Source: Halorarum salinum (GTDB lineage Archaea > Halobacteriota > Halobacteria > Halobacteriales > Haloferacaceae). Taken from it: a DNA stretch of 64,000 nucleotides. This document shows, piece after piece, positions 2,119-60,780 of this stretch; position 1 is the stretch's first letter, and each line of letters begins with the position of its first letter. The notes under the pieces were generated by a model that was not told the origin of the DNA, ran no database searches, and saw only the letters and a list, made by a program, of their open reading frames with translations. The position numbers were made by a program, and so were the translations under genes. Location: contig NZ_CP058579.1 of assembly GCF_013402875.1 (NCBI RefSeq), positions 1,240,001-1,304,000 of the forward strand, in the 5' to 3' direction.

Positions 2119-2237
2119 GGGACTGAAAGGGGCCGCGGCTCTCGACGAACCCCGAACCCGTAAGCACCGCAGGCGAGCACAGCGAGCCGAGGAGCGCAGC
2201 GTGGTTCGCGGGAGCCGAGAGTCGCGGGGGCTTTCGA
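2119..2237 (-). repeat. dispersed hairpin element, copy 1 (minus orientation)
   Basis: Read on the minus strand it begins with CGAAAGCCCCCGCG and ends with GGCCCCTTTCAGTCCC, the two conserved ends of the family. Inside the ends are imperfect inverted arms (CTCTCGG...CGAACC against GGTTCG...CGAGAG). The central part reads GCTGCGCTCCTCGG...CCTGCGGTGCTT on the minus strand. It lies between the accessory membrane gene and hisS. Related copies are listed at 15160, 15933, 22294, 22530, 29121, 31986, 38442 and 60752. Confidence 0.75.
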
Positions 2238-15932: not shown

Positions 15933-16340
15933 TCGAAAGCCCCCGCGGGTGTCGGCTCGCGCGATACGGAAGACGGTCCTGCTCGCTCACTTTGCTCGCT
16001 GCGCTCGTCGGCTGCGACTTCCGATGTCGCCCTCACTGCGTTCGCGCGACCCTCGCTGCGCGCTTCGCGCTCCCTTCGGTCGCGCTCCAGTGCTTGCGTC
16101 GTCGGGGTTCGCCGAGAGCCACGGCCCCTTTCAGTCCCACACACCGCCGCCTCGCCCTCCCCAGCCTCCCGCGCTCCTCGCGTTCGCTCCCTCCGGTCGC
16201 TCACGCTGCGGTGTCCGCGGGCGACCCGCAAGTCGCCCGCGGGCTAGCGAGACCTTCGGTCTCGCCGTGCTCGTCCCTCGCGCGCGTCTACTCGCCCCGC
16301 GAGGGGGCTCGCGTCGCGCGCGCCGGCCGGTTGGCCCTCT
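15933..16340 (+). repeat. dispersed hairpin element, copy with both modules
   Basis: The 5' end CGAAAGCCCCCGCGGG is at about 15933 and the 3' end GGCCCCTTTCAGTCCCA at 16123-16139, giving a 208-bp first module whose centre is full of short inverted repeats. It continues into the second module: CCCTCCCCAGCC (about 16152), CTCGTCCCTCGCGCGCGTC (about 16270) and GGGGGCTCGCGTCGCGCGCG (about 16304). It fills the space between pdaD and the next gene. Confidence 0.7.
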
Positions 16341-22201: not shown

Positions 22202-22293
22202 GCTCGTGTTGCCGTGCCGGGGGCCGAAAACGGTTACTGCCTGATTCTGGGTGTTCGGCTTCGCGACTAGTGCTGTCCTCGCAGCACAGTTCC

Positions 22294-22520
22294 CGAAAGC
22301 CCCCGCGGCTGTCGGCTCGTCGGTTGGTCCGGTCGTCGCGGCACGGTCCTCGAAAGTCCCCGCGGCCCCTTTCAGTCCCACCCGACCGCACAGCGCCTCA
22401 CCCTCCCCAGCCTCCTGCGCTCCTCGGTTCACTCGCTCCGCTCGTTCACCTGCGGTGCTCGTCCCTCGCACGAGCGGCCGCGCTCCGCTTGGCCGCCGCG
22501 CGCCGCGTGGACCGGTCAGT
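22294..22520 (+). repeat. dispersed element, plus-oriented half of an inverted pair
   Basis: A 5' end (CGAAAGCCCCCGCGGCTG) is at 22294. A second 5'-like end at 22351 is fused directly to the 3' end (CGAAAGTCCCCGCGG then CCCCTTTCAGTCCC), leaving a near-palindrome with no loop. Module 2 follows: CTCACCCTCCCCAGCC (about 22401), CTCGTCCCTCGCACGAG (about 22458), then CGGCCGCGCTCCGCTTGGCC. Confidence 0.7.
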
Positions 22521-22529
22521 GCGGTGGCG

Positions 22530-22757
22530 CGTGCCGGCGGGCCTCCGGTCACGCGAGCGAGCCTGCGAGCGAGGGTGACCTCACGGGACCGCAGGTCCCG
22601 GGTAGTGCCCGCCGGACGCGCGCGAGGGATGAGACGCGCAGCGACCGCAGGGAGCGAGCATCGCAATCGGCTGGGGAGGCCGAGAGCCGCGGGGGCTTTC
22701 CGGGACTTCTCCACGATTACCGAACCGGCCCCCCGGCCGACGGCTGCGGGGGCTTTC
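22530..22757 (-). repeat. dispersed element, minus-oriented half of an inverted pair
   Basis: Module 2 in minus orientation (GACGCGCGCGAGGGATGAG at about 22614, ATCGGCTGGGGAGGC at about 22668) runs into the inverted 5' end GCCGCGGGGGCTTTC (22686-22700). A further inverted 5' end, GGCTGCGGGGGCTTTCG, is at 22742-22758. With the copy at 22294 this forms a head-to-head arrangement of about 460 bp between pgi and the next gene. Confidence 0.65.
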
Positions 22758-22853
22758 GCGGTCGTCACTGCGGTATGCGCTGCACCAACCGTTCCAAACG
22801 ACCCGACGACGGATGACGGGGCCCTTAACAGCCGCCGCCCCCAATCCGCGACA

Positions 22854-28954: not shown

Positions 28955-29120
28955 GGTATCGCCCCACGCAGTGTTGGCGCGTGAGAGTGAAAAACCGTCG
29001 GTCACCTCTAGGCTCGATTGCCAGTTTCGGCGACGTCCGTGGGGGGTGACCGACGGGATGGCTACGGAAACCTCCGTGCTCCTCGGTTCCGAGTCAGTCG
29101 ATTCGTCTCCGAACAGTTCC

Positions 29121-29685
29121 CGAAAGCCCCCGCAGGTGTCGACTCCCGCGACCCACGCTGCGCTCCTCGCGCTCCCTCCGGTCGCGCTTGCGGTGCTTGC
29201 TACGGGAGACGGTCCTGCTCGCTACGCTGTGCGGGCTGCGACTCCCGAGGTTCGCCTCGCGGTTCGAGGGAGCGAAGCTCCCTCGTCATCACGAAAATCG
29301 AGATTTTCGAACGACTCCGCTCGCCTCACCGGGGTCGGGGTTCGTCGCCACCCGCGGTCCCTTTCAGTCCCACCCACCGCACCTCGTCCTCCCGTACCTC
29401 GGAGCGCGCTCCGCGGAACCGCACGAAACTCTCCGATCTTCGGCAGCGGGCGAGAGCTTCGCTCTCGTGGCCTCAGCGAATCTCCGATTCGCGGAGTGAC
29501 GAGACGGCGGTGCCGTCTCGAACCATCACCCTCGCTCGCAGGCTCGCTCGCGTGACCAGCCTCCTGCGATGCTCGCGTCCGTTCCCTCCGGTCACTCCCG
29601 CTGTGCTTCTCGTCCCTCGCGCGCGCGTCGACTCAGCCCCACCAGGGGGCTCGCGTCGCGCGTCGGCGCCGGTTGGACGGTCTCG
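29121..29685 (+). repeat. dispersed hairpin element, long copy with both modules
   Basis: 5' end CGAAAGCCCCCGCAGG at 29121, 3' end GGTCCCTTTCAGTCCCA at 29356-29372. Arms GGTGTCGACTCCCGCGACCC and GGGGTTCGTCGCCACCCGC (29331-29354) are imperfectly complementary. The centre carries additional internal hairpins. Module 2 is seen further right: CAGCCTCCTGCGATGCTCG (about 29558), CTCGTCCCTCGCGCGCGCGTC (29608 on, quoted in part) and GGGGGCTCGCGTCGCGCG (about 29645). Confidence 0.7.
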
Positions 29686-31985: not shown

Positions 31986-32330
31986 TCGAAGGCCTCCGCG
32001 GCTGTCAACTCGGTGGTTGATTCAGTCGCTGCGGAACAGATGTCGAAAGCCCCCGCGGTGCTGGACTCGGGCGGCCGGCTGCGCTCCTCGGCTCGCTCCC
32101 GTCGGTCGCTCGCCTGCGGTGCTTGACCGCCCGGCCGTCGTCCAGCACCACGGCCCCTTTCAGTCCCATCCACGCCTCACCCTCCCCAACCGGCGAGGCC
32201 CCTCCCTTCGGTCGGGACCTCGCCTCACCTCGGAGCGAGCCCCTCGGAACTCACCCTCGCTGCGCTCGCGTGAGCCTCGCACGAGCGGCCGCGCTCCGCT
32301 TGGCCGCCGCGCGCCACGGGGATTCGTCGC
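31986..32330 (+). repeat. dispersed hairpin element with strong arms
   Basis: A degenerate 5' end (CGAAGGCCTCCGCGGCTG) at 31986 is followed by a good one at 32044 (CGAAAGCCCCCGCGG). The 3' end GGCCCCTTTCAGTCCCA is at 32152-32168. Arms GGTGCTGGAC (32058-32067) and GTCCAGCACC (32140-32149) are perfectly complementary. The centre reads GCTGCGCTCCTCGG...CGCCTGCGGTGCTT. Module 2 follows: CTCACCCTCCCCAACC, then GCCTCGCACGAGCGGCCGCG. Confidence 0.75.
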
Positions 32331-36989: not shown

Positions 36990-38378
36990 ATGGACATGCA
37001 CCTGCCCGACGCCGTCGTCGGCGACGCACAGACCAGCGCGTTCGCGTGGGACACGCTCACCGACCTCGTCGACGTCGGCAACCGCATGGCCGGTCAGGAG
37101 GGCGAGCGGCGCGGCGCCGAGGTCGTCCGCGAGGCGTTCGCCGAGGCGGGTCTGCGCGACCCGCACCTCGAGGAGTTCGAGATCCCCGGCTGGTGGCGGG
37201 GCAGTTCGTCCCTCGAGATCCACGAACCGCACGAGCGGGTCCACGACGGCCAGCAGGACGTGCTCGCGCTGCCGGGCAGCCCCTCGGGCGGGGCGACCGG
37301 CCGCGTGGTGGACGTCGGCGACGGCACCTACGAGGAGTTCGAGGCGAACGCGGACGAGCTGGAGGGTGCGGTCGCGCTCGCCTCCTCGAACACCCCCGAG
37401 GACGCCGACCGCTGGATCCACCGGATGGAGAAGTACGTCAACGCCGCCGACCGCGGCGCCGTCGCGTTCCTGTTCCGCAACCACGTCGAGGGGTCGGTGC
37501 CCCCGACCGGCGAGGTGGGCTACCACGAGCGCCCCGGGCCGATCCCGGCGCTGGGCGTCTCCCGCGAGGCGGGCGCCCGCCTCGCCCGCTACGCGGAGGA
37601 GGGCTGCGAGGTGACCGTCTCGGTGGACTGCCGGAACGAGCCGACCACCTCGCGGAACGTCGTCGCGGACGTGGACCCGCGCGGTCCGGAGGGCCGCGGC
37701 GGAGCCGACGAGACCGTCGAAGCCGAGGAGATGGTCCTGCTCACAGCCCACGTCGACGCTCACGACGTGAGCGACGGCGCGAACGACAACGGCGCCGGCT
37801 CGGCCCTGGTCGCGGAGGTCGGGCGGCTGCTGACGGACGTACACCTGGACACGCGCGTGCGATGCATCACGTTCGGCTCCGAGGAGATCGGCCTCTGGGG
37901 CGCCTACCACGCCGCCGAGACGCTGGACCTCGACTCGGTGAAGTGCGTCGTGAACCTCGACGGCGCCTGCTCCAGCCGGTCGCTCCGGGTCGGCTCGAAC
38001 GGCTTCGAGTCGGTGGAGGCCGTGTTCGAGGAGGTCACCGACGACATGGACGCCCCGCTCGCGACCGACGACACGATCTCCCCGCACGGCGACCAGTGGG
38101 CGTTCGTCCAGGAGGGCGTCCCGGCGGTGATGACCTCGACGGTCTCGGAGTCGTCGGGTCGCGGCTGGGGGCACACCCACGCCGACACGCTCGACAAACT
38201 CGACTCGCGGGACCTCCGCGACGTCGCCGTCCTCGTCGCGGAGGCCGTCGCCAGGCTCGCGAGCGACGACGTGGAGACGCCACGCCGGAGCCGCGCGTCG
38301 ATGGCCGAGTCCATCGACGACGGGTACGTCCAGGAGCTGAAGATGGGCGGGCGCTGGCCGTACGACGATCCGGAGTAG
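36990..38378 (+). CDS. M28-family metallopeptidase (second paralogue)
   Basis: A 462-residue protein parallel in layout to the gene at 6672-8012. Metal-site pattern: TAHVDAHDVSDGANDN, GSEEIGLWGAYHAAE, VVNLDGAC and GRGWGHTHADT. Both also share NRMxGxEGE near the start and the RWIHRMEKY / RFVHRMEKY segment, so duplication is clear. The ATG at 36990 (MDMHLPDAVV) is preferred over the upstream in-frame start at 36927. No signal peptide. Peptide substrate unknown. Confidence 0.88.
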   Translation: MDMHLPDAVVGDAQTSAFAWDTLTDLVDVGNRMAGQEGERRGAEVVREAFAEAGLRDPHLEEFEIPGWWRGSSSLEIHEPHERVHDGQQDVLALPGSPSGGATGRVVDVGDGTYEEFEANADELEGAVALASSNTPEDADRWIHRMEKYVNAADRGAVAFLFRNHVEGSVPPTGEVGYHERPGPIPALGVSREAGARLARYAEEGCEVTVSVDCRNEPTTSRNVVADVDPRGPEGRGGADETVEAEEMVLLTAHVDAHDVSDGANDNGAGSALVAEVGRLLTDVHLDTRVRCITFGSEEIGLWGAYHAAETLDLDSVKCVVNLDGACSSRSLRVGSNGFESVEAVFEEVTDDMDAPLATDDTISPHGDQWAFVQEGVPAVMTSTVSESSGRGWGHTHADTLDKLDSRDLRDVAVLVAEAVARLASDDVETPRRSRASMAESIDDGYVQELKMGGRWPYDDPE

Positions 38379-38441: not shown

Positions 38442-38566
38442 CGAAAGCCCCCGCGGCTCCGCGGGAAGCACGGCGAAGCAAGCACCGCAGGCGAGCGAAC
38501 GGAGTGAGCGAGCCGAGGAGCACAGCGAGACGCGCGACCGCGGAGCCGCGGCCCCTTTCAGTCCCG
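38442..38566 (+). repeat. dispersed hairpin element with inverted centre
   Basis: 5' end CGAAAGCCCCCGCGG at 38442, 3' end GGCCCCTTTCAGTCCC at 38550-38565. The arms CCGCGGCTCCGCGG (38451-38464) and CCGCGGAGCCGCGG (38538-38551) are a perfect 14-nt inverted repeat. The centre reads AAGCACCGCAGGCGAGCG...CCGAGGAGCACAGCG, which is the reverse complement, relative to the ends, of the centre in the copies at 2119 and 31986. Confidence 0.8.
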
Positions 38567-38679: not shown

Positions 38680-41028
38680 TCACTCGCTCCCGCCGTCGGT
38701 GGCTGCCGCGTCGCCCGACCCGGATCCGCCCGCCACGTCGCCGCCCACCCACTCCATCTCGCCGTCGTCGAGGTCCCCGTCGACGGCTCCGTCCCCCGTC
38801 GCCCCGGCGCCCTCGTCCACGTCCGTCTCGAACTGCGCGAGCGCGCCGTCCAGCTCCATCGCCTGCTCCGCGAGGTCGTCGGCGACGCCGACGACCTCCC
38901 CCAGCGAGGCGGTCTGCCGTTCGGCGGCCGCGGCGACGCCGTCGGCCTCCCTGGCGGTCTCCCCTGCGGCCGACCGGACGTCGTCCATCATCGCGGCGAC
39001 CTCCTCGGCGCTCTCGGCCTGGTCGTCGGTCGCGCCGTCGATGTCCTGCATCCCGGCGTTCGCCTCCTCCACGAGATCGGCGACCGAGCGGAGCGCGTCC
39101 GCGGCCGTCTCGACGGTCTCGGCGCCCTCGCCGAGCCGCTCCCGGGCGCCCCGCATGTCGTCGGCGGTCGTCTCGGTCTGGGTCCGGATGCTGGCGAGCT
39201 GGGTCTCGATCTCCTCGGCCCGGTCCTGGGCCTCGGTCGCGAGCGACTTCACCTCCTCCGCGACGACCGCGAACCCCTCGCTCCCCTCGCCCGCGCGGGC
39301 CGCCTCGATGTTGGCGTTGAGCGCGAGCAGGTTCGTCCGGTCCGCGATCTGCGAGACCGCCTCCGTGACCTCGCCGACCGCCTCCATCCGCTCGACGAGC
39401 GTCTCCACCTCCGCGACCGCGTCCTCGGCGCGCGTCTCGACGTCCTCGACGACCTCGACGGCGTCCTCGGCGGCCCGGCGGCCCTCGCGGGCCTCGGCGG
39501 CGGTCTCCTCGGCGGTCGCGGCGACGCCGCCGGCGGTGGAGGCGACCTCCTCCACGGTCGCGGAGACGGTGTTCATCTCGTCGGCCGCCTCGCCCAGCCG
39601 TTCCCGCTGGTCGGCGGTGTCGGAGCTCACCTCGGTCATCGACTCGGCGACCTCGCTGCTCACCTGCCCGACCTCGGTCGCGCTCCGCGCGAGGTCGTCG
39701 CTGGCGCCCCGCACCGAGTCCGCGAACGCCTGCACCTCGGCGAGGGTGTCCTCGAGCTCCGCGAGCACTTCGTTCAGCTCGGTCCCGAGCCGTCGGATCG
39801 CCTCGGCGTCGCTCCCGGGGTCGACGCGGGCCGTGAGGTCGCCGTCCGCGACGCGGCCGATGACCGCGCCGTAGTGGGCGGTCTTCTCCTCCAGGTGCGA
39901 GGAGAGGTGTTCGGCCTCCCGCTTCGCGGCCAGCGCGTCCTCCTCGGCGCGCTCGGCGGCCTCGATCCGTTCCCGGAGCCCGACCCGCATCGCGTCGAAC
40001 CCCCGGTAGAGGTCGCCAAGTTCGTCCCGCCGGTCGCTGTCGATCTCGCGGTCGAGTTCGCCCGCCTCCAGGTCGCTGGCCGTCGCCGTCAGGTCACGGA
40101 GCGCGAGCACGGTCGGCCGCTCGACGACGAGCGCGAACCCGACCAGCAGGACGCCGACTGCCGCGAGCAGTCCGAGCACGCGGAGCCCGACCGCGTCCGC
40201 GAGGCCGAACAGGGTCGACGGCGGCGCCGACGAGACCATCGCCCAGTTCGCCCCGTCGACGCCGCGGTGGGCGACGACCGCGCGCCCGTCGCTCCCGGAC
40301 CGGCCCGCCTCGAGGGTCGCCGCCCCGGCGGTCCCGTTCAGACCGGCGACGACGGCGGGCGAGTCGACGCCCGCGCCCTCGACGTGCTGGGTGCCGACCG
40401 CCTCGGGCGACTCGGTGTCGAGCACCACGACGCCGTTCGCGTCGACGACGCGCGTCCGCGACCCGGGCACCATCGTCTCCAGTTCCGCCGCGATGGCGGT
40501 GGCGTTGAGTTCGGTGACGAGCGTGCCGCCGGTGTTCGTCCGGGTGAACAGCACCCAGGACCGGTGTCCGTCGCGTTCGACGTACTGGATCCCCGCGTTC
40601 GCGTCCTCGGGCGGTTCGAGGCCGACGTCGGCGAGTTTCTTCCCGGTCAGTCCGTCGCCGGAGGTGGCGGATATCTCGCCGCCGTACCGGGCGTAGTGGA
40701 CCGCCCTGACGCGGTCGCTGCCGAGGGCCCGGCTGGTGAGCACCGACTGCATGCGCCACTGCCGCTCCTCGCCGTCGGTCGTCGACGTCGAGACGCGGGA
40801 GAGTTCGCTCGCGGTCGTGTCGGCCGAGCGATCGACGTCGGCGAGGACGGTCTCCAGCACGCTCGCCTGCATGTTCGCCTGGCCCGCGAGGCCGTCCCGC
40901 TGTTCGCTGCGGACCTGGTCGGTGACGTCGGCGTAGACGGCCGCCCCCACGATCCCGCCGACCAGCAGGACGGCGGCGACCCCGAGGACCACCTTGGCGG
41001 TGTAGCTCCGACGCGGGTCGACGTTCAT
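38680..41028 (-). CDS. methyl-accepting chemotaxis transducer
   Basis: A 782-residue halobacterial transducer. TM1 is at about 12-32, an extracytoplasmic Cache-like sensor (about 35-275) contains WVLFTRTNTGGTLVTEL, and TM2 is at about 280-305. One HAMP follows TM2 and a second HAMP-like segment (GRVADGDLTARVDPGS) lies near 395. The signalling domain holds the hairpin tip DRTNLLALNANIEAARAGEG and FAVVAEEVKSLA. Acidic Gly/Asp-rich C-terminus. It signals to CheA/CheW; ligand unknown. The Gln/Glu pairs suitable for methylation flank the tip. Confidence 0.92.
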   Translation of the reverse strand: MNVDPRRSYTAKVVLGVAAVLLVGGIVGAAVYADVTDQVRSEQRDGLAGQANMQASVLETVLADVDRSADTTASELSRVSTSTTDGEERQWRMQSVLTSRALGSDRVRAVHYARYGGEISATSGDGLTGKKLADVGLEPPEDANAGIQYVERDGHRSWVLFTRTNTGGTLVTELNATAIAAELETMVPGSRTRVVDANGVVVLDTESPEAVGTQHVEGAGVDSPAVVAGLNGTAGAATLEAGRSGSDGRAVVAHRGVDGANWAMVSSAPPSTLFGLADAVGLRVLGLLAAVGVLLVGFALVVERPTVLALRDLTATASDLEAGELDREIDSDRRDELGDLYRGFDAMRVGLRERIEAAERAEEDALAAKREAEHLSSHLEEKTAHYGAVIGRVADGDLTARVDPGSDAEAIRRLGTELNEVLAELEDTLAEVQAFADSVRGASDDLARSATEVGQVSSEVAESMTEVSSDTADQRERLGEAADEMNTVSATVEEVASTAGGVAATAEETAAEAREGRRAAEDAVEVVEDVETRAEDAVAEVETLVERMEAVGEVTEAVSQIADRTNLLALNANIEAARAGEGSEGFAVVAEEVKSLATEAQDRAEEIETQLASIRTQTETTADDMRGARERLGEGAETVETAADALRSVADLVEEANAGMQDIDGATDDQAESAEEVAAMMDDVRSAAGETAREADGVAAAAERQTASLGEVVGVADDLAEQAMELDGALAQFETDVDEGAGATGDGAVDGDLDDGEMEWVGGDVAGGSGSGDAAATDGGSE

Positions 41029-60683: not shown

Positions 60684-60751
60684 TCCGGTCCGGTTCCGTC
60701 GGGGACGTTCGGAGTAGCATGGATTGGTGAGTAACGCCAGGCGGACGCCTT

Positions 60752-60780
60752 CGAAAGCCCCCGCGGGTGTCGACTCTCGC
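60752..60780 (+). repeat. lone 5' end of the dispersed element
   Basis: CGAAAGCCCCCGCGGGTG followed by TCGACTCTCGCG. No matching 3' end (CTTTCAGTCCC) is found before tgtA, so this is a partial copy in the 340-bp gap between the CPBP and tgtA genes. Confidence 0.6.

Follow-up and report, generated by a model that had tools for sequence, protein, structure and literature searches.

Reversed interior in one copy of an apparently undescribed intergenic hairpin repeat of Halorarum salinum and other haloarchaea

Between a gene for an M28 peptidase (36990-38378, +) and one for a chemotaxis receptor (38680-41028, -), Halorarum salinum carries a short hairpin-forming sequence (38443-38565) whose centre appears to be turned around with respect to its ends. 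All positions are those of the window, i.e., the whole stretch of 64,000 nucleotides that was analyzed. The question raised by this locus is whether the interior has been inverted between the arms of the hairpin, as the original prediction proposed, and by what process. The sequence turned out to be a member of a multi-copy family of intergenic hairpin repeats present in this genome (4.26 Mb in two contigs) and in the class Halobacteria. As argued below, it is a real inversion, of a kind with a known mechanism, in what is apparently an undescribed repeat family.

The copy reads, in order, GAAAG, CCCC, a 14-nt arm, a 73-nt interior, the complementary arm, CCCC, and TTTCAGTCCC. Folding as a single strand brings GAAAG onto CTTTC, leaves the C runs opposite each other unpaired, and closes the loop with the 14-bp arms (Table 1). 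The arms had been described as a perfect inverted repeat, and CCGCGGCTCCGCGG and CCGCGGAGCCGCGG are indeed exact reverse complements; the reversed reading of the centre with the ends in plus orientation, AAGCACCGCAGGCGAG ... CCGAGGAGC, also proved correct. As for the two copies with which it had been compared, the one starting at 2119 is a genuine copy on the minus strand, but the one placed at 31986 is not where it was thought to be, since its hairpin lies at 32043-32167 and 31986 is a second left end. Tandem left ends exactly 57 bp apart are found at 22293/22350, 31986/32043, and, on the minus strand, 22744/22687; this 57-bp left-end unit (ACAGTTCCCGAAAGCCCCCGCGGCTGTCGGCTC...CGTCGCGGC) is an extra module upstream of the hairpin. 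Other copies have hairpins nested in their bodies (L123 1378-1535, L263, 15933-16138, and 29120-29371), with sequences such as TCGTTCGA...CGAACCACG or TACGGAAGACGGTCC...CTCACC.

Table 1. Parts of copy 38443-38565 and other members of the family in the 64-kb window
Feature	Position	Strand	Remarks
Left constant end GAAAGCCCCC	38443..38452	+	GAAAG pairs with CTTTC at 38555-38559; CCCC runs opposite, unpaired
Left arm CCGCGGCTCCGCGG of the inverted repeat	38451..38464	+	Covarying helix 2
Inverted interior	38465..38537	-	Reverse complement matches F-orientation copies, best 83% (G001 L069)
Centre motif AAGCACCGCAGGCGAG; F copies read CTCGCCTGCGGTGCTT	38480..38495	-	Conserved motif
Centre motif CCGAGGAGC; F copies read GCTCCTCGG	38513..38521	-	Conserved motif
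Right arm CCGCGGAGCCGCGG	38538..38551	+	Exact reverse complement of CCGCGGCTCCGCGG, covarying
Right constant end CCCCTTTCAGTCCC	38552..38565	+	Kept at the syntenic G001 locus without hairpin
F-orientation copy	2119..2237	-	Same element as 38443-38565
F-type copy extended by nested hairpin	15933..16138	+	
Hairpin-less (solo) copy	22350..22379	+	Second left end at 22293; mirrored left ends at 22687-22759 (-)
Copy extended by nested hairpins	29120..29371	+	Right end with 1 mismatch (TCCCTTTCAGTCCC)
F-orientation copy	32043..32167	+	Additional left end 57 bp upstream, at 31986
Left end with degenerate arm	60751..60766	+	Right end not found

All members follow the same plan: the ends GAAAGCCCC ... 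CCCCTTTCAGTCCC are constant, the arms covary and are particular to each copy, and the centre is asymmetric. The right end CCCCTTTCAGTCCC has 63 exact matches in the genome against none for the reversed control, and the number of copies, which counts such exact matches only, is hence at least 63. The 18-mer GCGGCCCCTTTCAGTCCC occurs 40, 48, and 21 times in three genomes of the genus, and it was found in 73 of 391 Halobacteria genomes, belonging to 29 of the 86 genera sampled (0 matches for the control). The copies read out have in common the ends and the centre TGCGCTCCTCG ... TGCGGTGCTTG, with differing arms, and the family as a whole diverges widely (mean column identity, 76%). None of the 115 copies with enough context lies inside an ORF as predicted by a simple codon-usage caller, and the neighboring genes are arranged in tandem in 63 cases, divergently in 30, and convergently in 17. 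A transcription terminator or 3'-UTR element, an idea prompted by a few convergent cases, was discarded because these 115 copies occupy tandem, divergent, and convergent gaps alike. A known structured RNA was also rejected, as a search of the 64-kb window against Rfam gave no family at gathering score, and so was a virus-borne element, as the viral contigs searched for GCGGCCCCTTTCAGTCCC gave no match. The sequence GGGACTGAAAG has a certain look of a CRISPR repeat, an impression that we set aside since the adjoining sequence varies between copies.

The family is modular. In Halorussus (L141, L143, L184, L228, L230, L234, and L240), the same ends enclose an unrelated hairpin body (GGTCGCTCAGCGACATAT...ATAGnGGTCGCTGAGACGAC), so that the constant ends seem to persist while the body is exchanged. 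Two elements can point at one another with their right ends, on either side of a middle of 200-350 bp, giving a composite of ~500-600 bp with inverted ends, such as L012 (1380-1960) and, in the H. salinum genome (G000), the pairs 265943/266261, 1225307/1225581, 3815070/3815271, and 3841241/3841469; at the L012 locus of the congener G002, the middle of the composite is present alone. A second conserved module (ACCGCACCTCACCCTCCCCAGCCTCCTGCGCTCCTCG...TGCGGTGCTCGTCCCTCGC), with the same centre motif inside another hairpin, follows most right ends on their 3' side (e.g., L026 from 1515). L007, L019, L037, L041, L047, L048, and L051 have an alternative conserved right flank, CCCGCCCCGTGGGACGGTCGGGTGAGCGTCG, with a small hairpin of its own whose sequence varies. 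The left end of L007 and L031 is GAAAGGGGCC and not GAAAGCCCCC, as if it had been copied from the right end, with which the whole element then forms a perfect palindrome. About 30 copies are solo, i.e., without a hairpin, and their ends meet at CGCGG or CCGG, as slippage between these repeats would leave them. Congeneric species also differ by gain or loss of the element: both congeners are empty at the L035 locus, where their intergenic sequence is too diverged for the junction to be seen, and the L053 locus has no hairpin in G002.

The orientation of the interior relative to the ends was scored in 171 copies from many haloarchaea, of which 165 have it in the common orientation (F) and 6 in the reverse one (R). 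The R copies are confined to H. salinum (38 F and 5 R, with 38443-38565 among the latter) and G002 (17 F and 1 R, named L120), against 41 F and 0 R in the other congener, G001, and 69 F and 0 R in the rest of the haloarchaea. An exact-pattern search of 34 genomes detected R-type interiors only in H. salinum (three) and G002 (one), and F-type interiors in 23 genomes. For each R copy, the reverse-complemented interior gave the better fit to all of the 112 F copies compared; the interior of 38443-38565 has a mean identity to them of 69% when reversed versus 54% as it stands. All 40 sampled F controls preferred their own orientation, and a near-palindromic middle does not account for the reversed centre. 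The flip takes in the entire interior as far as the arms, because the asymmetric segments adjacent to the arms turn together with the centre in the alignments. Perfect arms of 13-14 bp are found in four of the six R copies, those of L012 and L035 being interrupted; when we looked for longer arms in R than in F copies, there was no separation (P = 0.29).

Inversion is thus well supported as a reading of the family and of the interior in 38443-38565: the original claim of an inversion between the arms holds in that the whole interior is reversed as a unit, with five more R copies, but not as regards a flip in place at this particular locus. In G002 the locus is split, and at the syntenic locus of G001 only the right end, AGCCGCGGCCCCTTTCAGTCCC, remains. 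The flip at 38443-38565 is unpolarised, since the only syntenic relative keeps the right end alone, and an in-place inversion there is presumed.

Other loci are more complete. The original prediction would have been refuted by a single fixed orientation at each locus among relatives, but 2 of the 14 comparable syntenic pairs in congeneric species differ. One of them joins C1 ~773.0-773.3 kb of G000 and C1 ~2457.7-2457.8 kb of G002 (L120), with both flanking genes syntenic (84-91% identity); the copy is F in G000 and R in G002, and CCATCG arms and subtype are common to both. L120 is 81% identical to its G000 orthologue when reverse-complemented versus 61% as is, the best value among the 112 F copies, and here a spacer is reverse-complemented between unchanged arms at an orthologous locus. 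G001 has a solo copy at the corresponding right flank. With the arms trimmed, however, the G000 orthologue ranks 4th and not 1st among F copies, and G002 has an F paralogue, L123, which also has CCATCG arms and the very same outer segments as L120. L120 may therefore have come from ectopic exchange, and a flip may generally arise by such exchange with another copy instead of in place. The other discordant pair is at the L037- locus: G000 has an R copy there, G002 an F copy whose body is different, and G001 a solo copy. The remaining 12 pairs with hairpins in both genomes are F/F, five of them resting on one flank only.

A change in one arm is almost always matched by a compensating change in the other. 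Over 64 F copies, the covariation score is 0.335, versus 0.111 when shuffled and at most 0.112 when slid, and 93.4% of the cells are paired (80.1% shuffled), with two-sided changes at 17 pairs. Helix 1 (columns 1-5/119-123, GAAAG/CTTTC) is paired in 99.4%, and in the outer arm (columns 12-22) 130 cells have changed on both sides and 9 on one side. Arm homogenisation, a signature of template switching, is thereby present in the family. Template switching between short inverted repeats is known to homogenise arms and invert spacers (PMC8604942) and to generate compensatory stem changes in a single step (PMC8794818), and in plastid genomes it is common for a loop to be inverted between short arms (PMC6824564). 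The spacers inverted by template switching in yeast measure 2-5 bp (PMC8604942), far below the ~73-bp spacer of 38443-38565. Considering that arm homogenisation and spacer inversion coincide here, and that both are described consequences of template switching, we favor this process and regard it as probable (roughly 0.62) that the flip is a rare replication accident, with the template switched at the inverted arms. A hairpin or cruciform would stall the replication fork, and the polymerase would then switch template at the arms, copy the interior off the other strand, and switch back, leaving the spacer turned. The same kind of event would copy one arm onto the other and so keep the arms complementary while their sequence drifts, and slippage between CGCGG/CCGG repeats at the base of the hairpin would delete it, leaving a solo copy. 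The predominance of F across many genera means that flips either happen seldom or are selected against. The flip seems to be without function.

Template switching is presumably the agent, and the same outcome would follow from RadA-type recombination between the arms. Indeed, inversion of the interior in place by homologous recombination between the arms (RadA/Hjc or RecA-independent), or by cruciform resolution, would make use of the perfect 13-14-bp arms found in most R copies, but it does not account for the copies with interrupted arms, crossing over alone leaves the homogenised arms unexplained, and at 12-14 bp the arms offer very little length to classical homologous recombination; we consider it unlikely. 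Rather unlikely too is that ectopic gene conversion, or a hairpin cassette reinserted into the constant ends, supplied a body of opposite orientation without any in-place inversion. Hairpin bodies do differ at syntenic loci (L037-/L107), Halorussus has the same ends with unrelated bodies, G002 has an F paralogue (L123) with the arms of L120, and the SMR-A repeats of Haloquadratum insert into palindromes (PMC3119063). Nevertheless, L120 and its syntenic partner have the same arms and subtype, both of which an exchange would have had to preserve, and free insertion predicts approximately equal orientations and not the 165:6 observed. A more speculative and doubtful view is that the constant ends are recognised by a haloarchaeal enzyme able to move or copy hairpin DNA with nearly any body sequence and without IS605 machinery, the flips being by-products; it stems from the fact that the same ends enclose different bodies in this genus and in Halorussus.

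An invertible segment with flanking inverted repeats, always intergenic (0/115 in ORFs) and found in all gene arrangements, divergent promoter regions included, could suggest a regulatory or phase-variation switch turned by a site-specific recombinase. We find this very improbable, since the orientation is almost fixed across the class, the arms that would serve as recombination sites vary from copy to copy, and no recombinase is adjacent, the neighbors of 38443-38565 being the peptidase and receptor genes. A frequently flipping switch is contradicted by the counts themselves, with 0 R in the 41 copies of G001 and in the 69 of other haloarchaea. Least credible is an assembly error: palindromes may be misassembled, but R copies appear in two independent genomes, with unique flanks, at loci where F is the rule.

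The nearest described elements are PATEs and SMR-A, whose architecture the hairpin family resembles. PATEs, the palindrome-associated transposable elements of Haloquadratum walsbyi and other haloarchaea (PMC3119063, PMC10544981), are likewise non-coding, multi-copy, and haloarchaeal, with near-terminal palindromes and core-deleted "terminal-only" short forms. However, their ends resemble IS605-type transposons, whereas this genome has no profile match to TnpA (PF01797) or TnpB (PF01385), with Haloferax volcanii controls positive, and we saw no transposon bearing these constant ends; the absence of both proteins led us to reject mobilisation by a resident IS200/IS605/RAYT enzyme. PATEs also lack terminal inverted repeats by definition, from which the composites appear to depart with their inverted ends; in L012, two palindromic ends facing each other make up an inverted-repeat composite, and the boundaries given to a single element are provisional. 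For the lack of target duplication that marks PATE insertion, the L035 locus was compared with its empty counterparts in the congeners, whose sequence has diverged too far to show the junction. SMR-A of Haloquadratum is ~110 bp long, has prominent inverted terminal repeats and dozens of copies per genome, and occurs within the palindromic ends of larger elements (PMC3119063). The hairpin body (~100 bp, with covarying arms) agrees with this in size and terminal repeats, but SMR-A copies within a type are commonly >95% identical (PMC3119063), in contrast to the widely varying arms and bodies found here. The 30 solo ends, the right-arm remnants of G001, and the CGCGG/CCGG junctions fit deletion as well as an SMR-A-like insertion. 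REP/BIME and other bacterial stem-loop repeats (PMC2267715) are also intergenic, folded, and modular, with tens to hundreds of copies, the likeness considered being one of architecture; no Y1 (RAYT) transposase was found in this genome. The small stem-loop inversions of plastids (PMC6824564) and the spacer inversions of yeast (PMC8604942) share a loop inverted between short perfect arms and two forms distributed between relatives; they differ from the present family, in which the spacer of ~73 bp lies in a dispersed repeat, so that many loci can be compared within one genome. We found no description of this repeat in open-access papers (the search covered few subscription journals), and the family is apparently unnamed.

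The surprise is a moderate one: a widespread and probably undescribed haloarchaeal repeat brings a known mutational mechanism into unusually clear view. The hairpin family amounts to a natural experiment, in which flips, deletions, and arm homogenisation are recorded together in dozens of copies per genome and in three congeners. Which agent spreads the repeat, given that no IS605 machinery was detected, and why its ends are kept in 29 of the 86 genera sampled can now be tested. Strong stem covariation, which is usually taken to prove a functional RNA, can come from a repeat that changes as in template switching at the DNA level.
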